Shown: one piece after another, positions 1 through 11,082 of the stretch
How the letters are laid out: the number at the start of each line of letters is the position of its first letter
Numbering within the stretch: position 1 is the stretch's first letter
Assembly (NCBI GenBank): GCA_013043165.1
Contig: JABDOQ010000037.1
Location: 1 to 64,000, forward strand
Length of the DNA: 64,000 nucleotides
Origin: Woeseiaceae bacterium
Lineage (GTDB): Bacteria; Pseudomonadota; Gammaproteobacteria; Steroidobacterales; Woeseiaceae
Reading direction: 5' to 3'
Notes under the pieces: model-generated
The model's database searches: none
What the model was told of the DNA's origin: nothing
The model's input: only the letters and a program-made list of their open reading frames with translations
Made by a program: the position numbers and the translations under genes

Positions 1-104
1 ACTGCTGACAGCTGGTCCAGACGATTGTCGGAACAGGCAGATACGACCAGCAATGCGGCCAATGACGCTGCGAGACGCAGCGAAGCTTGCGAACGAAACT
101 TCAT
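1..104 (-). CDS. N-terminus of a lipoprotein (cut by window edge)
   Basis: Only the first 34 codons are inside the window. The ATG at 104-102 follows a strong AGGGGG ribosome-binding site by six bases. The peptide begins with a basic n-region (MKFRSQ), then a hydrophobic stretch and the lipobox VVSAC, so it should be a signal-peptidase-II-processed lipoprotein with the modified Cys at residue 24. No catalytic domain is visible. Its promoter carries the same LacI-type palindrome as the GH3/GPH promoter, so by inference it belongs to the same glucan regulon and may be a secreted or surface glycan-binding or hydrolase protein. It is too short to reach a translated length cutoff. Confidence 0.7.
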   Translation of the reverse strand, partial: MKFRSQASLRLAASLAALLVVSACSDNRLDQLSA

Positions 105-187: not shown

Positions 188-201
188 TGACAGCGTTGTC
201 A
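188..201. promoter_or_regulatory. LacI-family operator, copy 1
   Basis: TGACAGCGTTGTCA is a 14-bp palindrome with one mismatch. It matches 13 of 14 bases of the operator at 8467-8480. Read on the minus strand it overlaps a TTGACA -35 box with TTTCAT 17 bases downstream, upstream of the lipoprotein gene at 104. A repressor bound here would block RNA polymerase. Confidence 0.75.
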
Positions 202-255
202 ATTCTTACATAACGGGGGGCAAAGGGATCTGAGCTTTTGTTACATTTTGAAACA

Positions 256-286
256 GTTGGGACGCGGCATTATGCCGCGTCCCAAC
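256..286 (-). terminator. Strong hairpin after the first small paralog
   Basis: A perfect 14-bp stem (GTTGGGACGCGGCA with its complement) encloses a 3-base loop, 26 bases after the stop of the gene at 312. The run that follows on the minus strand is only weakly T-rich; on the plus strand a short T run follows. It is probably a terminator separating the small-paralog unit from the lipoprotein promoter. Confidence 0.65.
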
Positions 287-311: not shown

Positions 312-536
312 TTATGCGGCCTGACGGCGAGCGCGTAGCCAGAAGCGCCCCCAGGAAAATCGGATCCCTTGGCCGGTGTCCGGCTGATCTTCTTGGGCCT
401 GTCTCTGTCGCTCATCCCGAATCTTGTTGATCCGGTCGTCGGCAATGGCTGGCGCGATGACAAACGAGGATTTCGCCGCCATGCCGCCCAGGCTTAAGGT
501 GAAAGCATCGCGTCCTGGTTTGGCTTTCTCAAACAT
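312..536 (-). CDS. Small 74-residue protein, paralog A (unknown family)
   Basis: The ATG at 536 follows a GGAG box by seven bases; a longer in-frame reading (to 632) lacks a ribosome-binding site and starts with TTG. The product is 74 residues, with no signal peptide or membrane segment. It is a paralog of the gene at 983-1207: residues 1-54 are identical at 45 of 54 positions (shared core FVIAPAIADDRINKIRDER), the last five codons are also similar, but residues 55-69 are unrelated and aromatic-rich here (FSWGRFWL). The conserved start, variable segment and conserved tail resemble a precursor peptide with a variable core, but no maturation enzyme is recognised nearby apart from a JmjC-like cupin. 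I do not recognise the family. Confidence 0.7.
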   Translation of the reverse strand: MFEKAKPGRDAFTLSLGGMAAKSSFVIAPAIADDRINKIRDERQRQAQEDQPDTGQGIRFSWGRFWLRARRQAA

Positions 537-600
537 GGTCATTCTCCAGAGGGTATTGATGTACTGCAGTTTGTCGGGCCGCATGTACCGGGCCGACGCG

Positions 601-670
601 CAAACAATATAGATGCGGTGGCAAGGCCACAAACGGGAAAATCTCAGCTCTGAGCTGAGAAAAATTCAAT
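601..670 (-). promoter_or_regulatory. Promoter and palindrome of paralog A (duplicated in paralog B)
   Basis: A perfect 19-base palindrome at 642-660 (TCTCAGCTCTGAGCTGAGA) lies upstream of a TTGTGG -35-like box and a TATTGT -10-like box 17 bases apart (minus strand). About 70 bases here align with the region 1271-1340 upstream of paralog B. The palindrome position, upstream of -35, fits an activator such as the neighbouring LysR protein; that link is inference. Confidence 0.6.
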
Positions 671-775
671 GGGAGTCGGTGTAATTCTGAGACATCCGTT
701 CGCTTTGACTCGCGGCGGACATGCTAACGAAGGGCCACGGCCCGGGCGTCCCGAAGACGGATACTGGAATCGCGG

Positions 776-961
776 TCAGGCGCGTTGACTCGCCAGATAT
801 CGAGCGAACTCATTAGGTTGGTAGTTGAGTTCCGCGATCGCCCGATCGACACGTTCTTTCGTCGCGGCGCGTACATGCGGCTCTCCGTTCACCACGCGCG
901 ACACGGTCTTGATCGAGACTCCAGCGAGATCGGCAACGTCGAATACAGTGGCATTTGGCAT
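776..961 (-). pseudogene. LacI-family regulator reduced to its DNA-binding domain
   Basis: The 61-residue product contains a full LacI-type helix-turn-helix (VFDVADLAGVSIKTVSRVVN, residues 6-25) and the hinge helix region (NEFARYLASQ), then stops. LacI-family repressors are normally about 330-350 residues with a periplasmic-binding-protein-like sensor domain; none is found in any frame in the 240 bases before the next gene. The gene begins 21 bases after paralog B on the same strand. It is either a truncated remnant of the repressor of this glucan locus or a functional stand-alone DNA-binding domain. I list it as a pseudogene because of the missing domain, but the reading frame up to the stop is clean. 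Confidence 0.7.
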
Positions 962-982
962 GTGTGTTGGCCTCGCCGGACC

Positions 983-1207
983 TTACGCGGCCCGACAGCG
1001 CCCCGGTGCGAAGTAGTACGCGAGCACGTTCTCGATCTCGCGAGCCGTGTCCGGCTGGTCTTCCTGGCTTCGGCCAAGCCGCTCGTCTCGAATCTTGTTG
1101 ATTCGATCGTCGGCGATGGCCGGCGCGATGACAAACGAGGATTTCGCTGTCATTCCGCCCAGGCTAAAGGCGAAAGCATCTCGTGCTGGTTTGGCTTTAT
1201 TAAACAT
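983..1207 (-). CDS. Small 74-residue protein, paralog B (unknown family)
   Basis: The ATG at 1207 is preceded by AAGGAG with eight-base spacing, a better ribosome-binding site than most in the window. It encodes 74 residues, the same length as paralog A at 312-536, with 45 of 54 identical residues at the N-terminus and a divergent segment at residues 55-69 (here LAYYFAP). It lies between the LysR gene and the LacI remnant, all on the minus strand, and has its own promoter copy. No signal peptide, transmembrane segment or known motif is visible. The function is unknown; the preserved reading frame and duplicated promoter argue that it is expressed. Confidence 0.75.
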   Translation of the reverse strand: MFNKAKPARDAFAFSLGGMTAKSSFVIAPAIADDRINKIRDERLGRSQEDQPDTAREIENVLAYYFAPGRCRAA

Positions 1208-1270
1208 GGTCGGTTCTCCTTAACGAACTATGTTTCACGGTTGCCGAGCCGGTTTTGCCCGCTCGACGGT

Positions 1271-1340
1271 GTAAACAATAGGGATTCAGGGAAAAGACCA
1301 CAAACGAAAAGAATTCAGGCCTGAGTTGAGAAAAACTCAA
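1271..1340 (-). promoter_or_regulatory. Promoter and imperfect palindrome of paralog B
   Basis: This is the second copy of the promoter described at 601-670. The palindrome at 1313-1331 matches 14 of 19 bases of the paralog A copy, and TTGTGG and TATTGT boxes are again 17 bases apart. The element runs up to and over the stop codon of the LysR gene. Confidence 0.55.
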
Positions 1341-2230
1341 GTGGAATCAGCGAAGTTCCTGACTATCCAGTCTCGCAGCAGAACAACGCTCTCATCGTCG
1401 GCCCGGTCCTCCGTGCAGACCAGGTAGTAGCTGACGTCGGCGACGTACTCCTTCTTGAACAGCCGCACAATGCTGCCCTCTTTGAACCACAGATCGCCGA
1501 TCGGCACCGGGACCAGTGCTGCCCCGATGCCGCGCTGCGCCGCTCGCACGATCGCAATCATCGAATCCAGGCGGGTGACCTTGCTGTTCTCGGGAAGCTC
1601 TACACCCGCTGCGTCCGCCCAATGCGTCCAGGCTTTCGGGCGAGTTTCATGCACGATGATCGGGAAGTCGCTCACAATCTTCTTCTTCTTCACCACCATC
1701 GCTTTCTTGAATTCCGGCGAACCGGCCGGCACCATGCGCAGCGGGAAAAGCAGGTTCGACGGCATGTTTGCCGGAGGCGCCCGAAAAAGCCGGATCGACA
1801 GATCGGCATCGGAAGGGTGCTTCTCCGAGGACTCGTCGCTCGTGCCCACCTGGATGTCAATCTCCGGGTGTTCGGCCGTAAATTCGCTGAGTCGCGGCAC
1901 GAAATACTCGCTCGCAAAGAACGGCTGCACGGAAATGCGAATGGAGCTCTTCACGGCGCCTTTCTTGTACTTCGCAACGACCGTGTTCAGTTGCTCGATC
2001 AGGGGACTGGCCTCTTCGTAAAGCAAGCTACCGATTTCCGTTAGGCTTATGTCGCGGCCTGTACGATCAAACAGCTGCTCACCCAGTTCCTCTTCGAGGC
2101 TCTTGATCTGGTGGCTGACGGCCGATGCCGTGATGAAAAGCTCTTCGCTGGCCGTGCGAAAACTCTCATAGCGCGCCGCGACGCAGAATGTTCGCAATCC
2201 GCGCAGGGACATTTTCTGTTTACTGATCAT
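1337..2230 (-). CDS. LysR-family transcriptional regulator (GcvA-like)
   Basis: The N-terminus has the LysR helix-turn-helix (LRTFCVAARYESFRTASEEL and SAVSHQIKSLEEELGEQLFD), followed by a LysR substrate-binding domain, about 297 residues in all. The helix-turn-helix resembles the GcvA/AmpR branch. An upstream extension to 2305 would start with TTG and overlap the JmjC gene, so ATG 2230 is chosen; ATG 2212 is also possible. It sits 47 bases after the JmjC gene and directly upstream of the two small paralogs, whose promoters carry a palindrome where an LTTR activator would bind. Regulation of those paralogs is inference; the inducer is unknown. Confidence 0.85.
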   Translation of the reverse strand: MISKQKMSLRGLRTFCVAARYESFRTASEELFITASAVSHQIKSLEEELGEQLFDRTGRDISLTEIGSLLYEEASPLIEQLNTVVAKYKKGAVKSSIRISVQPFFASEYFVPRLSEFTAEHPEIDIQVGTSDESSEKHPSDADLSIRLFRAPPANMPSNLLFPLRMVPAGSPEFKKAMVVKKKKIVSDFPIIVHETRPKAWTHWADAAGVELPENSKVTRLDSMIAIVRAAQRGIGAALVPVPIGDLWFKEGSIVRLFKKEYVADVSYYLVCTEDRADDESVVLLRDWIVRNFADST

Positions 2231-2277: not shown

Positions 2278-3291
2278 CTACTGTAACAGCTGCTGCGACA
2301 ACCAAGCCTTCAGCTGCTTGCGTTTTTCTGGTGTAAGGGAACCCAGCACATCCTCAATATCGTTGGGCAAGTGTGCTGCCGGGTCGCTATCGGTTTGAAA
2401 GACAAAATAATCGAAGAAATCCCGCCATATCTGTCGTTGATCTGCAGGCAGCTTCGAAATTGAAAGCATGCTAGTGAGCAGGCTGTGAAACGGCGAATCT
2501 GCAGCCGTTTTCGCGTCATTCCACCAGTAATTTACAAGCACGTTGAGGTTGCCAAGCGACTCTACCGAGTGCCACCAGAGAATAGGGATGTATAAGGCAT
2601 CGCCCGGTTCAAGGTCCGCTTTTTGGCAGACTTCCAACGCGCGCTTGAAACGCGGATAACGGGACATGTCGGGTTGCCGCAAATCGACCATGCTAATCGG
2701 GGAGCCTCCGGGCGTCGCCAGCAGCGGTCCAATGTAGAGATTGGCAACCTGTTCCGGAGGGAACAGCGTAAAACGCCTGCGACCGGCGACGACGCAAGCG
2801 ATGTTGCTGTAGATATCGTAATGCGTCGCAATCGTCGATCTGTTACCCAACCACATCCGTGGCGCTAGCGTTGGATCGATCAGGGGAAGGACGTTTTCTT
2901 TTTCAAAACCGGGCAAGACATCAAGCACCGGAATAGCCTGCATTGCGATAGCCGGAGAATCCGGCCTATCAATCAGTGCAGCCAGATTATCGAGTGCGGT
3001 GCTGACCGTTACGAGCTTGCGTTCGAAATTAAAACCCTGAAGGTCATCGCGATAGAAGAACCGGCCTTTTATCGAAGGAGCACCGACGGTCGCATTAGCC
3101 GCCTTTTCGCTGTCAAATTGCTTGATGTAGCGGCAGATATGCGCCGGTGACTTTAGGCCCTCTTCGACCGCGGGCCATTTTCCTACCAACGACTTCAACA
3201 CTGCCGGCTGATCGCCAGGAACTATTTCGTTTTGAAAGGTCTCGAGATCAACATTTTGCCATTCCCGGATGCTGCGAACAGATTTCGCCAT
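2278..3291 (-). CDS. JmjC-like cupin (Cupin_8) protein
   Basis: The 337-residue protein has the fold signature of JmjC/Cupin_8 Fe(II)/2-oxoglutarate oxygenases: an HxD pair (H157, D159 in THYDIYSN), and the distal His241 in the GDALYIPILWWHSV strand. Family members hydroxylate proteins or small substrates. Genes of this type are common in TonB-receptor-linked polysaccharide loci of gammaproteobacteria and alphaproteobacteria, usually without a proven role. It follows the GH17 gene by 107 bases on the same strand and precedes the LysR gene. The two small paralogs close by are possible substrates, which is speculation. Confidence 0.8.
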   Translation of the reverse strand: MAKSVRSIREWQNVDLETFQNEIVPGDQPAVLKSLVGKWPAVEEGLKSPAHICRYIKQFDSEKAANATVGAPSIKGRFFYRDDLQGFNFERKLVTVSTALDNLAALIDRPDSPAIAMQAIPVLDVLPGFEKENVLPLIDPTLAPRMWLGNRSTIATHYDIYSNIACVVAGRRRFTLFPPEQVANLYIGPLLATPGGSPISMVDLRQPDMSRYPRFKRALEVCQKADLEPGDALYIPILWWHSVESLGNLNVLVNYWWNDAKTAADSPFHSLLTSMLSISKLPADQRQIWRDFFDYFVFQTDSDPAAHLPNDIEDVLGSLTPEKRKQLKAWLSQQLLQ

Positions 3292-3398: not shown

Positions 3399-4466
3399 TC
3401 ATCTGTCGCGTGCCGCCGCTAAATACCTGATCACCTGCTTCGGTGTTCGGTCAACATTGAATATGCCCCAGTGTTTCTCCGCACCCAACGGATTGTCCGG
3501 ATTGCCCTTCCAGGGCTCGTCAAACGCTTCGAAGAAGAACACGGTCGTATTTGTATCGGTCGCCCATGCCTTTAATTCGCGATAGTAGCGCGCCTGCTTG
3601 GCTTCGCTGGCGCGTTCGCCAAACTCGATGGCAACGCTTGCCCAGCCAGCTTCCAGTATGGCGACCGGTTTACCCGGCAGCGCCGTATGCACGCCTTGCA
3701 TATTTTCAATCGTGTACGGCAATGCTTCGTCGATCGTCTTTTCTTCCCAGGCCGGATACGTATGGATGCCGAGGAAATCGAGTTCTGCCGCAAGCGGCGC
3801 GCCGTCCTGTATCCACCACTCGTAGTTATCCGCGACCGTAACGGGCTGATCGATTGCCGCTTTTACCTGGCGAACGTAGGCGATGACTTGATCGAGCGGC
3901 ACCATGTGGTCGTTCCATTCGACCAGCGCTTCGTTGCCGACGTTGACCGCGACGACGATGTCCTGGTATCGCCTCGCGAGCTCGATACCTTTTTGCACTT
4001 CCGCGACGTTCTCGAGGGTATTCTCGGCGAGCTTCTCATCCGGGATCGGTTCATCGAGCCAGGGACAGCCCTCGTGATTGCTGAACTCCGCATCGAGCCA
4101 GATGCCGAGCAGTACCTTTATTGGGAGCTGATGTTCTTCGATGAGCTCGAGCGTCGTTTGCGTATTCTCTTTGGAGTCGTACAGACGAATCAGCTTGAAG
4201 CCGTGCGCCACCAGGATCTCGAGGTCTTCGAGAATCTCGTCGTTGCTTGGGTTCACGGCACCATCGCCGCGGTCGGGATGCTGGCCTTCCCGGAATCCCG
4301 AATATGCGACGGCCATGACCTCGCCGGCAAGCAGAGCGTCGGGCGCCTGGTTGACTGTCTGTGCGATTTTCGGCGCCGGCGCATGGTCGGGCGCTTTGGC
4401 GCATCCGGCAATTGCGAAAACGACGACGGCCAGTAGGAACATGGCCAATAGATTGAGCAATTTCAT
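3399..4466 (-). CDS. GH17 beta-1,3-glucanase-like lipoprotein
   Basis: A signal peptide ends in the lipobox AIAGC, placing Cys22 as the lipidated residue. The mature part is a glycoside hydrolase family 17 TIM barrel with the acid/base in VAVNVGNEALVEW (E179) and the nucleophile in VAILEAGWAS (E272). Bacterial GH17 enzymes cleave beta-1,3-glucan such as laminarin, often as exo- or endo-glucanases on the cell surface or in the periplasm. The gene starts one base after the sugar-porter stop, so the two are translationally coupled. With the GH3 enzyme upstream this makes a short pathway from beta-1,3-glucan oligosaccharides to glucose. The exact linkage preference cannot be read from sequence. 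Confidence 0.87.
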   Translation of the reverse strand: MKLLNLLAMFLLAVVVFAIAGCAKAPDHAPAPKIAQTVNQAPDALLAGEVMAVAYSGFREGQHPDRGDGAVNPSNDEILEDLEILVAHGFKLIRLYDSKENTQTTLELIEEHQLPIKVLLGIWLDAEFSNHEGCPWLDEPIPDEKLAENTLENVAEVQKGIELARRYQDIVVAVNVGNEALVEWNDHMVPLDQVIAYVRQVKAAIDQPVTVADNYEWWIQDGAPLAAELDFLGIHTYPAWEEKTIDEALPYTIENMQGVHTALPGKPVAILEAGWASVAIEFGERASEAKQARYYRELKAWATDTNTTVFFFEAFDEPWKGNPDNPLGAEKHWGIFNVDRTPKQVIRYLAAARDR

Positions 4467-4467
4467 A

Positions 4468-6030
4468 TCAGCTTCTCACGAGTATTGTTTCAAGTTCTTC
4501 GAGCGTGCGGCCCTTGGTCTCCGGAAGGATACGCATGATTACGACCAGGCCGACCACGGCGAAAAGGCCATAGATCAGGAATGTCCCCGAGTTGCCGAGG
4601 TTTTCCAATTCCCAGGGAAAAACGAGCTGCACACCGAAGCTGACGGCCGAATTGATGAGGCCGGCAAACGATATCGCCAAACCGCGCAGTTGATTCGGGA
4701 ATAGCTCCGAGAACAGCACCCACATGACCGGCCCCAGCGAAATGGCGAAACTCGCTACAAATCCGAGGATGCCGAAGAGAATCAGCGTTGGATTCATGTC
4801 GATCGCGGCGCTGACGAGACTCGACTCGTGCTGCTTGAAGCTGTCTGCGCCGATGGCGGCCGAGACAGCCCGCCTGAATGCAACGTCGCTGTCGTAGCTG
4901 ACATCTTGCAATTGCGAGATGCTGTCGCGATCAACCAATGCAGGCAGTGAATCGATCGACTCCGCTGTCAGCGTATAAGTCGCCGAACCGAAGCCGTAAG
5001 ACAATGTGAACATGCAGACCGCGATACCGGTCAGTCCGAAGCTGAGCAGCGGGCGGCGACCGAGCTTGTCGATAAGGGCCATCGCAGCAATGGTAAAAAC
5101 GAGATTCACGATGCCGACCAGAATTGCCTGCATGAACGAAGCATCGGTGCCTATACCGGACTGCTCGAAAATCATCGGCGCGTAAAAGAACACCGAGTTG
5201 ATGCCGGTAATCTGCTGCAGGATCGCAACCGAAATACCAATGGTCAGAACGAGTTTCATCGCGGGCTGAAACAGCTGCCGTATTGAACTGCCTTGTTGCT
5301 CGGCCTCGGCGCTCAGGCTGGCGTGCACGACGGCCAGATCGGCTTTTGCCTGCTCGGGACCGCCCACTTTCTCGAATACCTGCAGCGCCTCCTCGTCCCT
5401 GCCGTGCATTGCCAGCCACCGCGGACTTTCGGGCACGATCAGCAGCGCGAAAAAATACAGAACTGCCGGCAGGGTCTCGACGCCGAGCATCCAGCGCCAG
5501 TTCCACTCGGCAAAACGCAGGGACTCCACCCAGGCGATGTCCGATTGACCGAGCATCAGTATCAGGTAGTTGCTGAAAAAAGCGACCGAGATGCCGATCA
5601 CGATATTCAGCTGGTTAAACGAAACCATGCGGCCCCGAATTTCGGCGGGTGCGATCTCGGCGATGTACATCGGCGCAATGATCAGCGCTGCACCGACACC
5701 GAAACCGCCGATCATGCGTGCAATTACAAGAAACAGGAAACTCGGCGCGACGGCAGACGCAACCGCCGAAACGGCGAACAACGCAGCGGCGAGCTTGAGT
5801 ACAGGGCGACGGCCCAGGCGGTCGCTCAGCGGCCCCGCCACCATCATGGCAATCGTTGCCGTCAGCGTCAGCGATGCAACCGACCAGCCCAGCTGAATCT
5901 TGCTCAACTGAAACTCGGTTTCTATGAAACCGACGACGCCCGAGATCACGGAAGCGTCAAACCCCATGAGAAATCCGCCGAGTGCGACAATGAGGGCGAC
6001 CGTTACAGTGAATCGCGTACTTTTCTGCAT
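4468..6030 (-). CDS. MFS sugar porter (SP family, XylE/GalP-like)
   Basis: The 520-residue protein has the SP-family signatures: GxLSDRLGRRP in the loop after helix 2, PESPRWL after helix 6, QITGINSVFFYAP in helix 7, DKLGRRPLL before helix 9 and PETKGRTLEELE at the C-terminus. It should import a hexose, probably glucose released by the GH3 and GH17 enzymes, by proton symport across the inner membrane. One oddity is a hydrophilic insertion of about 60 residues (about 350-411) between helices 9 and 10, predicted periplasmic, absent from XylE. It lies 17 bases after the GH3 gene in the same operon. Confidence 0.88.
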   Translation of the reverse strand: MQKSTRFTVTVALIVALGGFLMGFDASVISGVVGFIETEFQLSKIQLGWSVASLTLTATIAMMVAGPLSDRLGRRPVLKLAAALFAVSAVASAVAPSFLFLVIARMIGGFGVGAALIIAPMYIAEIAPAEIRGRMVSFNQLNIVIGISVAFFSNYLILMLGQSDIAWVESLRFAEWNWRWMLGVETLPAVLYFFALLIVPESPRWLAMHGRDEEALQVFEKVGGPEQAKADLAVVHASLSAEAEQQGSSIRQLFQPAMKLVLTIGISVAILQQITGINSVFFYAPMIFEQSGIGTDASFMQAILVGIVNLVFTIAAMALIDKLGRRPLLSFGLTGIAVCMFTLSYGFGSATYTLTAESIDSLPALVDRDSISQLQDVSYDSDVAFRRAVSAAIGADSFKQHESSLVSAAIDMNPTLILFGILGFVASFAISLGPVMWVLFSELFPNQLRGLAISFAGLINSAVSFGVQLVFPWELENLGNSGTFLIYGLFAVVGLVVIMRILPETKGRTLEELETILVRS

Positions 6031-6047: not shown

Positions 6048-8366
6048 TCAGTCGCCGTCGATGATGCGGAATTCAGTTCGAAGCTGGGTTTCCGAACTGC
6101 CGCCAATCCAGGCATGGAATTTGCCAGGCTCGTTTATTAACTTCATGTCACGCCCGAAAAATGCCAGGTCGCTGGTATGCAGTTCAAAATTGACCGTCAC
6201 CGTTTGTCCGGATTCCAGGCGCAGACGACGAAAGCCTTTGAGTTCTTTGACAGGTCTGGTGACATTCGCCACCAGATCGCGAACATAGAGTTGCACAACC
6301 TCCTCGGCGTCAAAGTCACCAACGTTTGTTAGCTCTGCGCTGACGGTCAGCGTGTCACCAAGACCAACCTCCTCTGCGCTTGTGCGGATATCCTGGTAAT
6401 CGAACTCCGTATAGGACAGACCGTAGCCAAACGGGAACAGAGGTGTAAACCCGGCGTCGAGATGATAGGCCGTCATTCCCGTCGACAGTTGCGGCGCGTG
6501 CGCATCGATATCGTCAATAAGCACGACCGTTTCCGGCGACGGCGGCTTACCCGTGTTCTTCTGGCTATAGTAAATCGGAATCTGGCCAACCATGCGCGGA
6601 AAAGTCACGGGAAGCTTGCCGGAAGGTGATTCAACGCCAAACAAAAGCTCGGCAATCGCCGGCCCGCCCATGGTTCCCGGATGCCAGGCAAACAAGATCG
6701 CGTCGACATCATCAATGATATTGGTCAACGTTAGCGGCCTCCCCGCCTGGATAATCGCAATAACCGGCTTGCCGGCTGCTTTCACGCGTCGCACCAGCTC
6801 TGCCTGGTCGCCCGGCAAGTTAATATCCGCGCGCGAGTGCGCCTCGCCCGACAAGATCGATTCCTCGCCCAGGAAAAGTAGAACGACATCCGAGTCACGC
6901 GCTATCTCTTCGGCCTCGTCGAACGCCTCGCTGGCCCTGCTGCGAGAATTGTCCATTGCTCGCAAATAGCGAACGTCGACCTCATGTCCGACCAGGCTGT
7001 GAATCGCATGCATCGGCGTGATGCTAAGCTCGCGGTCACCGTCGAAGATCCAGGTGCCCAGTTGTTCGTACGGTGCATCGGCTAGCGGTCCGATCACTGC
7101 CACTGATTTCAGCTTGTTTGCCGACAACGGCAGCACGCCATGGTCGTTCTTCAGCAACACGGCGCTCTGCAATGCCGCTTGCCTCGCTGTATCAAGCGCA
7201 TGCTCGTTCGCTATCGGAGGCAAAGCCCTTGGGTCTGTATACGGTTTTTCGAACAGCCCGAGACGGAATTTGGCGCGCAGGATATTGGCAACCATCGCAT
7301 CGATCGTCGCGACATCGATACGTCCCTCGTCAATCAAAGACTCGAGGTGCTGGACATAGGACTGACCGGCCATTTCCATGTCGACTCCAGCCGTCACGGC
7401 CTGGTAAACCGATTCCCTGTCGTCCTCGGTCAGGCCGTGAATCGCAAGCTGACGGACCGAGTCCCAGTCGCTGACGACGAAACCTGTGAAATCCCATTCA
7501 TCGCGCAAAACGTCGCGCAGCAGGAATTCATTTCCGGTCGCCGGCACACCATCGAGGTCGCTGAACGCCGCCATCAGTGAAACAACGCCTGTGTCAACCG
7601 CGGCTTTGAACGGTGGCAAATGCACGTTGCGTAACTCGTTCTCGGGGATATTGACGGTTGCGTAGTCGCGGCCGCTTTCCGACGCGCCGTAGCCGGCGAA
7701 GTGCTTGGCGGTAGCGGCTATGGTGCCTGCATCGGTGAGATCGTCTCCCTGAAATCCCTCGACCATTGCCACCGCGAGCTGACTGGCGAGATAAGGATCC
7801 TCGCCAAGACTTTCGGCAATACGCCCCCAGCGCGGATCGCGCGATATGTCGATCATTGGCGCAAAGGTCCAGTTGATACCGGCCGTTGCGGCTTCACGTG
7901 CGGCAACCCGCGCGCCTTCGCGGACAATATCCGGGTTCCAGGTTGCCGCTTGTCCCAATGGAATAGGCATTACGGTCTTGAACCCATGGATGACATCACG
8001 CCCGACCAGAAGCGGTATGCCGAGCCGGCTCTCCTGCACGGCGATCCGCTGCAGTTCATTGACGGTATCTACATCGACCTGGTTGAGAACCGAACCAACG
8101 CGCCCGGCCTCTATCGCTTCACGAAGATGATGCGGCATGTCCTCATCGGAGGCATTGACCTGGTTCATCTGGCCGATCTTCTCTGCAAGCGTCATCTCCG
8201 CAAGCAACGCTTGCACGCGTCGCTCGATCGACGCTGCATCATTTTTCGGGTTTGCGAAAGAGGCGGTCATAATTGTCATCAACGGCAGACCACAGAGCGT
8301 AGCCAACGTAGAGCCATTTGTAGAACCAGGACATTGGCGTAGGATTGTTCTTGTTGGCAGCATCAT
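6048..8366 (-). CDS. GH3 beta-glucosidase (BglX-like), exported
   Basis: The protein shows the GH3 N-terminal barrel (KIGQMNQVNAS, TAKHFAGYGA, GFVVSDWDSV with the nucleophile Asp at about residue 300), the alpha/beta sandwich C-domain and a fibronectin-III-like end. About 770 residues matches BglX. The TTG at 8375 is not needed: ATG 8366 or 8363 is in frame. A likely signal peptide ends at ASFA, about 35 residues in, so it would work in the periplasm on beta-glucosides. It is the first gene of the leftward operon and is transcribed divergently from the GPH transporter across a LacI-type operator. Confidence 0.9.
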   Translation of the reverse strand: MMLPTRTILRQCPGSTNGSTLATLCGLPLMTIMTASFANPKNDAASIERRVQALLAEMTLAEKIGQMNQVNASDEDMPHHLREAIEAGRVGSVLNQVDVDTVNELQRIAVQESRLGIPLLVGRDVIHGFKTVMPIPLGQAATWNPDIVREGARVAAREAATAGINWTFAPMIDISRDPRWGRIAESLGEDPYLASQLAVAMVEGFQGDDLTDAGTIAATAKHFAGYGASESGRDYATVNIPENELRNVHLPPFKAAVDTGVVSLMAAFSDLDGVPATGNEFLLRDVLRDEWDFTGFVVSDWDSVRQLAIHGLTEDDRESVYQAVTAGVDMEMAGQSYVQHLESLIDEGRIDVATIDAMVANILRAKFRLGLFEKPYTDPRALPPIANEHALDTARQAALQSAVLLKNDHGVLPLSANKLKSVAVIGPLADAPYEQLGTWIFDGDRELSITPMHAIHSLVGHEVDVRYLRAMDNSRSRASEAFDEAEEIARDSDVVLLFLGEESILSGEAHSRADINLPGDQAELVRRVKAAGKPVIAIIQAGRPLTLTNIIDDVDAILFAWHPGTMGGPAIAELLFGVESPSGKLPVTFPRMVGQIPIYYSQKNTGKPPSPETVVLIDDIDAHAPQLSTGMTAYHLDAGFTPLFPFGYGLSYTEFDYQDIRTSAEEVGLGDTLTVSAELTNVGDFDAEEVVQLYVRDLVANVTRPVKELKGFRRLRLESGQTVTVNFELHTSDLAFFGRDMKLINEPGKFHAWIGGSSETQLRTEFRIIDGD

Positions 8367-8466
8367 CGGGATCAAGATCGCGCGAGCCGCTTATTCTTAA
8401 CCAACCGAGCCTCACAAATCAGTTAACGTTTCGACGCAGTTGTAACGCTAAGTTTGTAACAACATT

Positions 8467-8480
8467 TGACAGCGCTGTCA
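8467..8480. promoter_or_regulatory. LacI-family operator, copy 2, in divergent promoters
   Basis: TGACAGCGCTGTCA is a perfect 14-bp palindrome, extended to 16 bp at 8466-8481. Because of the symmetry both strands carry TTGACA: on the plus strand it is 17 bases from GATTAT (GPH gene), on the minus strand 17 bases from TACAAA (GH3 operon). One bound repressor would therefore cover both -35 boxes. Confidence 0.82.
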
Positions 8481-8541
8481 ATTTGATAGATTATCCGCGG
8501 CTAGATAACCAAGCCGGTTACACTGGGAAAAAGAGCCAATA

Positions 8542-9999
8542 ATGAGCCAAACAACCCACCACCAGACGGCGCCCGCGGACAGAATTCCTTTTGCCCAAAA
8601 GCTAATCTACGGGCTCGGCGCATTCGTCAATAACACCCTCGCAGCCGCAATCGGCGGCATGATTATTGTACTAAATCTCGGCTACGGCATGAGTCCGGCG
8701 CTGGTCGGTCTGCTAGGCGCACTGCCCCGCCTGACCGACGCCATAACCGATCCGTTGATGGGTTATATCTCGGACAACACCAAATCCCGCTGGGGCCGCC
8801 GCCGACCTTATATCTTTGTCGGTGCAATTGCCGTCGGCATACTTTATGCGCTGCTGTGGCAACTGCCGGCCGACAAGAGCGACACATTTTACTTCACCTA
8901 CTTTCTTGTAGGCTCGCTGATTTTTTATCTCGCGTACACGGTATATGCGACGCCCTGGGTCGCGCTCGGTTACGAATTGACGCCCGACTACCACGAGCGC
9001 ACGCGCCTTATGGGCGTGCAGAATTTCATCGGCAATATCGCTTACATGATCTCCCCCTATTTCCTCGCGATCATGTACAGCGAACGCCTGTTCACCGACG
9101 TTAAGGCCGGCGCCGGCAACCTCGCGATCATGATCGGTGTCGTCGTCGTCTTGGTCGGCGTCATGCCCGCGATATTTCTGCGCGAGCGATTTAAAGAAGT
9201 CGCTGCCGCGGAGGTGGACGAGAAAAAAGAGCAGCCCGACGGTGGCATGTTGCACGTCATCAAGGATTTTATCCACGGCTTTGCAACGACGCTCAAGTTC
9301 AAGCCGTTTCTCAAGCTGTGCGCCGCAACGTTCCTGGTCTTCAACGGCTTTATATTAATCGCTTCTTTCCAGTCCTACGTCTTGATCTACTATGTATTCA
9401 GCGGGGATGCCAGCAAAGGTGCGGAACTTGTCGGCCACTCGGGACTGCTGATGGCCGTCGCCGCGCTAGGCGTTATCGCGTTCGTCACCTGGTTGGGCAC
9501 CAAGGTTGGAAAACGAAAGGCGTTCTTTGTTTCTACCGGCATCTCCATGCTCGGCTACGCGCTGAAATGGTTTTGTTACACGCCCGACAACCCATGGCTC
9601 GCGCTGATTCCGGCACCACTAATGGCGTTTGGACTGGCCGGGCTTTTTACCTTGATGCCATCGATGATTGCAGATGTCGTGGATGCCGATGAGCTGAATA
9701 CGCATGAACGGCGTGAAGGCATGTACGGCTCCATATTCTGGTGGGTCGTCAAACTCGGCCAGGCCGTGGCAATTGCAGGCGGCGGCATTCTGCTCACCCT
9801 GACGGGCTTCGACGTGGAACTCGGGGGAAATCAGGCAGCTGCGACCATTACCTACATGCGCATGTTCGATGCGTTTGTGCCCTGTATCGCCTCAGGCGTT
9901 GCCATTTGGGCGATAGCGACATTCTCGATCACCGAGGACAAGGCCTACGAAATCAGGATGGAACTCGAGAAAAGGCGCGGCGGCGCGGCCACCGCCTAA
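8542..9999 (+). CDS. GPH-family MFS transporter (glycoside-pentoside-hexuronide)
   Basis: The 485-residue, twelve-helix protein has the GPH hallmark LTDAITDPLMGYISDNT followed by RWGRRRPYI in the first loop. Members import oligosaccharides or glycosides with cations. It is divergent from the GH3 operon and shares its operator, so its substrate is probably a beta-glucoside or short gluco-oligosaccharide. That a glucose-type porter and a GPH porter both occur suggests uptake of both monomer and oligomer. It converges with the diguanylate cyclase gene. Confidence 0.87.
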   Translation: MSQTTHHQTAPADRIPFAQKLIYGLGAFVNNTLAAAIGGMIIVLNLGYGMSPALVGLLGALPRLTDAITDPLMGYISDNTKSRWGRRRPYIFVGAIAVGILYALLWQLPADKSDTFYFTYFLVGSLIFYLAYTVYATPWVALGYELTPDYHERTRLMGVQNFIGNIAYMISPYFLAIMYSERLFTDVKAGAGNLAIMIGVVVVLVGVMPAIFLRERFKEVAAAEVDEKKEQPDGGMLHVIKDFIHGFATTLKFKPFLKLCAATFLVFNGFILIASFQSYVLIYYVFSGDASKGAELVGHSGLLMAVAALGVIAFVTWLGTKVGKRKAFFVSTGISMLGYALKWFCYTPDNPWLALIPAPLMAFGLAGLFTLMPSMIADVVDADELNTHERREGMYGSIFWWVVKLGQAVAIAGGGILLTLTGFDVELGGNQAAATITYMRMFDAFVPCIASGVAIWAIATFSITEDKAYEIRMELEKRRGGAATA

Positions 10000-10007
10000 C
10001 AAGAACC

Positions 10008-10034
10008 GGGGTCGAACCGAGGTCTATCCTTCTC
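10008..10034. repeat. 27-base direct repeat, left copy
   Basis: GGGGTCGAACCGAGGTCTAT continues to 10034 and is repeated at 11190-11216 with 23 of 27 bases identical; all four differences are transitions. It covers the stop codon of the diguanylate cyclase gene. The two copies bracket that gene. Confidence 0.65.
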
Positions 10035-11082
10035 GTCGAACGCAGTCGCGCCCTGCGCGCTTCGCGGAATATAGCGCCTGGTCGGCTCGCTCTATCAATG
10101 TATCTACGGTGTCGCCATCGCGCGCCTGGGCAACGCCAAGGCTGATGGTGACCTGCAACTTTGTGTCGCGACTGTTTACTGCATCGCTGTTGATGTGCGT
10201 TCTTACGCGCTCGGCGACTTCCTCTCCTTCTGTGATATTAGTGTTGTGCAGTATGAACAGGAATTCCTCACCACCGTAGCGGCAGATTTCATCATCAGCA
10301 CGTGCGCCCGAGAGCATCCTGCCCGCAGCAATTTGCAGAACTTCGTCGCCTACCAGGTGCCCATGAGCATCGTTAATTTCCTTGAAATGGTCGAGGTCGG
10401 CCATGACCACGCATAGCGCTGACTGTTCCGTCCTCGCCAGCTCCAGGGCAGCCCCGAGGCATCGCTTGGAGTAAGAGTGATTGCGAAGATTGGTCAACCA
10501 GTCCGTTATCGCGAGTTCGCGCAGGCGGACAGTCTCATCTCGCTCGCTCTCGAGTGACTTCGTAAGATCGGATTCCCTGTTCGAATAGTAACTCTCAACG
10601 GCGAGCGACATATCGAGTGCCGTGATCCTGAGTATAAATCGGAGTATCTCCGCGAAAGCCGGCCCGTCATTGCGTATCGAGTCCGGAATGTACTCGATCA
10701 ACAGACTCTGCAGGCCCTGGAACGTACACTGGTAGAAACTTTGTGGCACACCGATGCGATGATGTACGGAGCCGATGCGCAAGCGCTCCTCGAAATATTC
10801 GCGCTTTTGAAAATCGATGCCCAGCCCCAAGAGGTATTTTTCCTGGCTGTCCCTCAGACGGGCAGCGCCGGACGCGCCGCCAACGAGACGATTGAAGTCA
10901 TCAATACGCAGCAAGTACGTGTAAAAACGGTCAACGATTGCATCTAGATTCGGGACAATGATGTGATCGTGGAGGATTTGGCCGCAGGCTTCCATACCCT
11001 CCCGATCAAGTTCGATGAGGCGCAATCGATCAGTAATTGTATCCTCGTCGAATTCGCAACTCGCCCACAATGGGTGGTCCAT
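10024..11082 (-). CDS. Globin-coupled diguanylate cyclase (DosC/HemDGC-like)
   Basis: The N-terminal 160 residues form a protoglobin-type sensor; His107 in VHHRIGVP is the likely heme ligand of the HxxIGxP motif. A linker leads to a GGDEF domain from about residue 190 with an intact active site GGEEF (271-274 region) and an intact inhibitory RxxD site (RADD, 261-264) exactly five residues before it. It should sense O2 or another gas and make cyclic di-GMP in the cytoplasm, with product inhibition. It stands alone between the glucan locus and kdsB, flanked by direct repeats, so it may be a mobile or inserted gene. Confidence 0.9.
   Translation of the reverse strand: MDHPLWASCEFDEDTITDRLRLIELDREGMEACGQILHDHIIVPNLDAIVDRFYTYLLRIDDFNRLVGGASGAARLRDSQEKYLLGLGIDFQKREYFEERLRIGSVHHRIGVPQSFYQCTFQGLQSLLIEYIPDSIRNDGPAFAEILRFILRITALDMSLAVESYYSNRESDLTKSLESERDETVRLRELAITDWLTNLRNHSYSKRCLGAALELARTEQSALCVVMADLDHFKEINDAHGHLVGDEVLQIAAGRMLSGARADDEICRYGGEEFLFILHNTNITEGEEVAERVRTHINSDAVNSRDTKLQVTISLGVAQARDGDTVDTLIERADQALYSAKRAGRDCVRREG

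Follow-up and report, generated by a model that had tools for sequence, protein, structure and literature searches.

What might two adjacent genes of the same length, whose products share most of their sequence and then part completely, be doing behind a LysR regulator gene? The question is raised by a Woeseiaceae contig of 80.7 kb, of which the first 64 kb were analysed (hereafter the window). The original prediction had described a pair of 74-codon genes with good ribosome-binding sites, a conserved N-terminal part, a variable segment and similar last five codons, and had compared this plan with a precursor peptide (leader, variable core, follower), naming paralogs that bind different partners as the alternative. 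A recount agreed with this description and gave 45 of 54 identical residues between peptides 1 and 2 for positions 1–54, one of 15 for positions 55–69 (Ile58) and three of five for positions 70–74. Both genes carry GGAGAA, 5 and 6 bases 5′ of the ATG. A frameshift origin of the tails was ruled out, the conserved tail being in reading frame in both genes. Structure prediction was uninformative (one AlphaFold2 run with 5 sequences; pLDDT 54.5, pTM 0.15). The features discussed below are collected in Table 1.

Table 1. Features of the peptide region and of the surrounding beta-glucan locus (window coordinates).
Feature	Position	Strand	Basis or remark
GH16 glucanase (lipoprotein start)	1..104	-	by synteny and N-terminal likeness; cut by contig end; GH16 in relatives
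LacI-type operator TTGACAACGCTGTCA	188..202	-	before GH16
Palindrome after peptide 1, terminator-like, without T run	259..283	-	by eye; similar in some relatives
Peptide 1	312..536	-	74 aa, class B tail (SWGRFWLRARRQAA)
5′ leader hairpin, peptide 1	573..597	-	folding z only -0.59; 21-leader alignment
Conserved box before peptide 1 (putative LysR site)	630..662	-	box comparison and own-genome scan
Mini-LacI, stand-alone headpiece (HTH and hinge, 61 aa)	776..961	-	PF00356, 4.7e-20; between the two peptides
Peptide 2	983..1207	-	74 aa, class A tail (LAYYFAPGRCRAA); first gene after LysR
5′ leader hairpin, peptide 2	1243..1267	-	folding; 21-leader alignment
Promoter-like TTGTGG-N17-TATTGT of peptide 2	1275..1303	-	by eye; similar arrangement in relatives
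Conserved box before peptide 2 (putative LysR site)	1301..1333	-	box comparison and genome scans
LysR regulator, GcvA-like	1337..2230	-	PF00126, PF03466; nearest NCBIfam model GcvA, below cut-off
Cupin_8 (JmjC-like) protein	2278..3291	-	Pfam; no counterpart found in other loci
GH17-like glucanase	3399..4466	-	Pfam match below cut-off; relative in L048 at cut-off
Sugar porter (MFS)	4468..6030	-	Pfam/NCBIfam match
GH3 beta-glucosidase	6048..8375	-	Pfam/NCBIfam match
LacI-type operator TTGACAGCGCTGTCA(A)	8466..8481	.	between GH3 and MFS_2
MFS_2 sugar transporter, divergent	8542..9999	+	annotated match

Using a profile of 33 members, clear matches were found in 26 of 107 genomes of the same bacterial family; at E <= 0.01 the profile gave 28, and the marginal matches in G067 and G080 (E 0.002-0.003) were taken as chance and excluded. 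A class-wide draw of 369 genomes, in which no more than 15 candidates per genome were scored and distant members could escape, returned the window's genome, one other of its genus and one weak match. Among the genomes searched, the family has thus been seen only in Woeseiaceae. Pfam and NCBIfam gave nothing beyond scattered single-member matches above E 0.03, so that the family has no home there; no match was found in PHROGs for the two window proteins, and the literature searched on neighbours and analogues holds no description of the family, which has no name.

The original prediction had proposed to test whether hypervariable tails are the rule among homologues. When residues 55–74 were aligned, hypervariability turned out not to be general, since the tails are conserved class by class. 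The 36 peptides comprise the types [YH]FAP (7), GRFW (10), RLW/RAWW...RR.PA (4) and ..WAT (6), and manual sorting of the remainder gave five tails with a Cys near the end and four others. The tails of both window peptides have conserved homologues ([YH]FAP type 7/36, GRFW type 10/36), the outcome that the original prediction had named as refuting its reading. The first three types can be aligned by eye, for most members, as R-x-[FW]-x3-[RH]-[RC]-x-[AP]-A. In a sample of 15 of the 36 peptides, whose pairs are short and non-independent, pN was lower than pS in 23/23 within-class pairs for residues 1–40 and again in 23/23 for residues 56 to the end; for residues 41–55, pN rose above pS in one within-class pair. 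This comparison indicates that the N-terminal part and the tail are both under purifying selection within classes.

How tails are distributed over loci was examined on the LysR tree, where label C was given to the LysR-adjacent peptide of L045. All tail labels together required 16 changes against 22.6 in shuffles (0/200 as low) and class D was clustered (3 changes against 5.6), while the class-A label required 6 changes against 6.5 (196/500 shuffles as low). Different tails stand behind sister LysRs in three cases (window/L043, L037/L048 and L046/L080). These label counts indicate that tails are partly inherited and partly exchanged between loci. L037 carries two peptides (A then F), whereas L048 carries F only, behind a promoter that is A-like by eye, which suggests a deletion between tandem copies. 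The change of tail class between some sister loci probably occurred through loss of such copies, and the overall pattern resembles a birth-and-death process of fixed-tail paralogs more than a hypervariable core.

The neighbourhood was compared in 24 extended stretches from 22 other genomes. Most members of the family lie between a GcvA-like LysR gene and a GH16 glucanase gene in a beta-1,3-glucan (laminarin) locus, with the usual order GH3 - sugar porter - GH17-like - LysR - peptide(s) - GH16 lipoprotein. Four peptide loci are orphans located away from glucan genes (L040, L042, L044 and L055). The original prediction had overlooked the beta-glucan locus, as well as the conserved promoter and 5′ hairpin that accompany each peptide gene and the fact that the LacI gene encodes the helix-turn-helix (HTH) part only. 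Its LysR, LacI HTH and cupin/JmjC identifications agree with Pfam. Of the cluster that it drew around the peptides, LysR recurs and a short LacI gene is present in 9/28 loci, but nothing similar to the cupin_8 (JmjC-like) gene was found in the other stretches, so that it lies beside peptides only in the window. The sugar-porter gene was found in 11/26 stretches, some contigs being cut. A gene of about 260 codons recurs between sugar porter and GH17 in 4/26 stretches (L035:7048-7833, L034:6183-6965, L054:3908-4432 and L049:3766-4590), with no Pfam match in the three copies scanned. A GH3, GH16 and GH17 laminarin set, common to the window locus, has been reported for benthic Woeseiaceae; in the main text of that paper, LysR, LacI and small protein have no occurrence (PMC12175321). 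A protoglobin-GGDEF fusion, likely an oxygen-sensing diguanylate cyclase, adjoins the glucan locus (window 10024-11082, minus strand).

Most members are preceded by a conserved box of the form TTTNTCA-N9-TGANNTNTTTNCGTTTG, followed by a -10-like sequence (TATTGT/TAAATT), a hairpin and the ribosome-binding site. In the own genome (3.19 Mb, 113 contigs), the box was found exactly twice with up to 3 mismatches, once per peptide, and the reversed pattern once. Across the 107 genomes, up to 2 mismatches gave 51 box sites against 2 control sites. The 32 of these 51 with 0-1 mismatch all precede a peptide, a mini-LacI (the short LacI gene), a TPR-like gene, an RNA candidate or a 44-aa ORF, and 10 further sites with 2 mismatches precede the same kinds of gene or candidate; this site-by-site reading left out nine boxes, seven in other genera, one in G054 and one at G074:C17. 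Downstream of LysR, the box most often starts three bases past the stop codon, and does so in the window before peptide 2. With up to 4 mismatches, a box lies within 260 bases after 42 of 49 LysR genes, against 0/2000 equally long window segments; for two of the 49 it was the box that led to the gene (40/47 without them), and the count excludes repeated regions as well as L115, whose LysR is cut by the contig end. The box was missing at this threshold in 7/49 LysR genes, and both box and peptide are missing in L107/L138 (69% LysR). The peptide of L190 (G079), absent from the profile-search list, was located through the box. From position and co-occurrence, we infer that the LysR protein binds the box. 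What the comparison shows is a conserved anatomy, with box and promoter at the LysR stop codon and an own copy for each window peptide.

Many leaders contain the hairpin even though its sequence changes. Folding gave a mean z of -1.65 over 36 leaders, with values below -1 in 25/36. In an alignment of 21 leaders, 4/5 stem pairs showed at least one change on both sides, with a covariation term of only -0.03 kcal/mol; because these 21 of the 36 were picked for a visible hairpin, the count leans towards structure. At the other end of the unit, a fixed terminator pattern had no match in the window, owing to spacing.

The window LysR contains both the HTH and the substrate domain, and its best subfamily model is GcvA (223 bits, below the cut-off of 288). 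A sister LysR clade, 50-59% identical to it, has the same box in the same place. There, behind the box, lies the gene of a TPR-like protein (173-186 residues) whose start resembles a signal peptide, as aligned for 18 loci (L142, L143, L144 and L123 among them), and a gene that looks peptidase-like by eye lies upstream in several of them. No support was found for homology between the peptides and the TPR-like proteins of the same slot (hhalign probability 0.6%, 9 columns), and no TPR gene was seen downstream of the LysR paralog of the own genome (L120). At L140 and L141, as also at L117 and L118, the box stands 5′ of a C-rich stretch that ends in a hairpin and in which no ORF is shared, a candidate for a small RNA under LysR control. 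At L189 (G074), a one-mismatch box starting at 1110 (minus strand) precedes an ORF of 44 codons, which has a good ribosome-binding site and is hydrophobic in its C-terminal half.

Residues 3-60 of the mini-LacI align with the lac repressor headpiece (residues 1-62) and match the 62-residue headpieces in PDB. The LacI HTH and hinge are present and the sugar-sensing and dimerisation domain is absent; relative to LacI-family regulators, this is a natural gene for the headpiece alone. Genes of this kind (about 61-72 codons) accompany peptides in nine of the 28 loci. Using the sensor half of the own LacI as query, nothing was found beside these nine genes; at L034, the full-length LacI query runs past the HTH at low identity. 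Among eight copies, pN was below pS in 28/28 pairs. At the orphan loci L042 and L055, the mini-LacI stands between box and peptide; at L040, the peptide stands between box and mini-LacI. By this comparison, mini-LacI is part of the same box-peptide units in a third of loci. It is missing from 19/28 peptide loci, and the peptide must therefore work without it.

At E<=1e-6, the own genome contains two LacI HTHs, that of the mini-LacI and that of one full-length LacI, and both have the recognition helix VSIKTVSRVVN. The LacI-like operator TTGACANCGNTGTCA occurs 5′ of the full-length LacI gene, of GH16 and, in two copies, of a TonB-halogenase operon, and one more copy separates GH3 from the divergent transporter; the reversed pattern had no match in the own genome, and a LacI-like site at C81, with another core and inside an ORF, is probably due to chance. 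A LacI-type operator was found near GH16 in 21/24 glucan loci (not in L041, L043 and L049). The full-length LacI gene (L155, contig C7), behind its own operator, adjoins two genes that are GH17-like by eye, and its product probably acts as principal repressor of the beta-glucan regulon. The two operators before the TonB-halogenase operon suggest that it probably belongs to the same regulon as the glucan locus of the window. This operon (L156, contig C19) reads by eye as TonB receptor - tryptophan halogenase - SapC - cupin_8, its cupin_8 being similar to that of the window.

Several explanations of the peptides have to be weighed against these observations. That they are RiPP precursors, with a conserved leader, a variable core and a short follower matured by an enzyme encoded elsewhere, would account for the leader-like conservation, for tail classes that change between some sister loci and for tails with Trp or Cys. 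The own genome moreover has one gene of the MNIO family (PF05114; C111:69372-70157), a family present in 87/107 genomes of the same bacterial family. However, both tails are conserved within their classes, and no known maturase occurs among the annotated recurring neighbours. YcaO was found in 0/107 genomes (the control matched in 5/14), PqqD was not found in the own genome (0/1), and five peptide carriers (G001, G035, G062, G079 and G087) gave no MNIO match. The precursor reading of the original prediction is thus not supported and we consider it very improbable; it is unlikely rather than dead, because these five carriers are 85-100% complete, one recurring neighbour (4/26 stretches) is without Pfam match and the maturases searched were YcaO, PqqD and MNIO. 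Export, in which the first 30 residues form a weak signal peptide ending at PAIA/DD, would fit the moderately hydrophobic stretch with an AxA-like end seen in many members, some of which come near signal-peptide hydrophobicity (12-residue mean up to 2.46, against 1.88-2.56 in the TPR-like proteins). An extracytoplasmic role is also made possible by the paralogous LysR clade, which drives proteins with signal-peptide-like starts. Against this, Asp10 is nearly invariant among the peptides, PAIA is not kept in every member, and hydropathy analysis places K, R, E or D inside the hydrophobic stretch in 18/36 peptides, which speaks against a signal peptide. Periplasmic or secreted peptides are in our view decidedly unlikely. 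Leaders of the double-glycine or Tat type were rejected by eye, the motifs not being kept across members.

Other explanations keep the product inside the cell. In the SgrR-SgrS/SgrT system, the regulator has as its neighbour a small gene that acts, through its product, on sugar metabolism, and SgrT binds and throttles a glucose transporter. This resembles the window arrangement, although SgrR belongs to a different regulator family from the window LysR and the likeness is at the level of arrangement. By analogy, the peptides might act post-translationally on uptake, throttling a sugar transporter or the TonB machinery: the locus has two sugar MFS transporters, the regulator directly adjoins a small gene with its own leader hairpin, and aromatic/Arg tails could reach the membrane. 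The sugar porter is nevertheless present in less than half of the stretches (11/26, some contigs being cut), and the peptides have no clear membrane segment, so that we rate this as possible but unlikely. The gene might also work mainly as a dual-function or regulatory RNA, a LysR-controlled structured transcript base-pairing with mRNAs, the protein being secondary. The folding of the leaders, the stem pairs changed on both sides in the chosen leaders and the hairpin-ended stretches behind the box at L140 and L141 point in this direction, as does the VtlR regulator, reported to control AbcR sRNAs (PMC7486931). The covariation term is small, however, and it is the protein that is conserved (pN<pS in 23/23 pairs), which leaves an RNA function with a low probability.

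The explanation that we favour, tentatively and at slightly less than an even chance, is that the peptides are small, probably cytosolic regulatory adaptors, the dedicated output of LysR in a beta-1,3-glucan regulon, tuning the glucan genes. They are placed in the cytosol as adaptors because they lack a clear membrane segment and because of the charges in 18/36 of them. LysR is probably the last gene of the GH3 operon, co-transcribed with the glucanase genes, and this operon lies behind a LacI operator; glucan breakdown products would lift LacI, so that LysR is made. LysR would then bind the box and switch on peptide 2 with mini-LacI, as well as peptide 1, during glucan breakdown. The peptides may act through protein-protein contact, in which one partner would be held by the common part of 45 residues and a second by the class-specific tail. 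The alternative of the original prediction, two paralogs binding different partners, is consistent with the observations. Mini-LacI, having the same recognition helix as full-length LacI, would occupy the same operators; without a sensor it cannot answer the inducer, and it may be a competitor of LacI or may close the operators once more, provided that something helps it to dimerise. Peptides and mini-LacI together would tune glucan gene expression in a manner like that of VtlR and DUF1127 proteins. The peptide partner and the sign of the effect are the least certain parts of this explanation. A bolder version, which we regard as rather unlikely, would make the locus a LysR cassette bearing its own output, in which the sensor-less headpiece and a tail-swapping small protein that supplies dimerisation or a partner form a two-piece, inducer-blind override of LacI control of the beta-glucan genes, each tail class redirecting it.

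The nearest known working model for the window LysR is VtlR. VtlR/LsrB of alpha-proteobacteria is, like the window LysR, a LysR regulator with few small targets, both sRNAs and small proteins, and a link to a sugar, fucose (PMC7486931, PMC12595884). VtlR binds three promoters, two belonging to sRNAs and one to a small protein gene (PMC7486931), and has under its control three small proteins of the DUF1127 kind that are connected with the use of fucose (PMC12595884); DUF1127 proteins are reported to be able to act through contact with a sensor kinase (PMC12501420). The two systems differ in several respects. The window peptides are not DUF1127 proteins (0/33 members matched at E<=1), the VtlR box GCAT-N3-TG-N3-T (PMC7486931) and the box described here are different when the two strings are compared by reading, and here the target promoter stands at the LysR stop codon, in a beta-glucan locus with a mini-LacI.

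The small-protein family is real and, as far as the searches go, undescribed, and its regulatory setting is unusually clear. To our knowledge, there are few known cases of small proteins with a regulator of their own. One LysR clade with a constant promoter spot and exchanged genes behind it provides a system for studying output exchange in evolution. The natural gene for a lac headpiece alone, in turn, raises the question of whether the DNA-binding domain of a LacI can function in cells when the part for dimerisation is missing.
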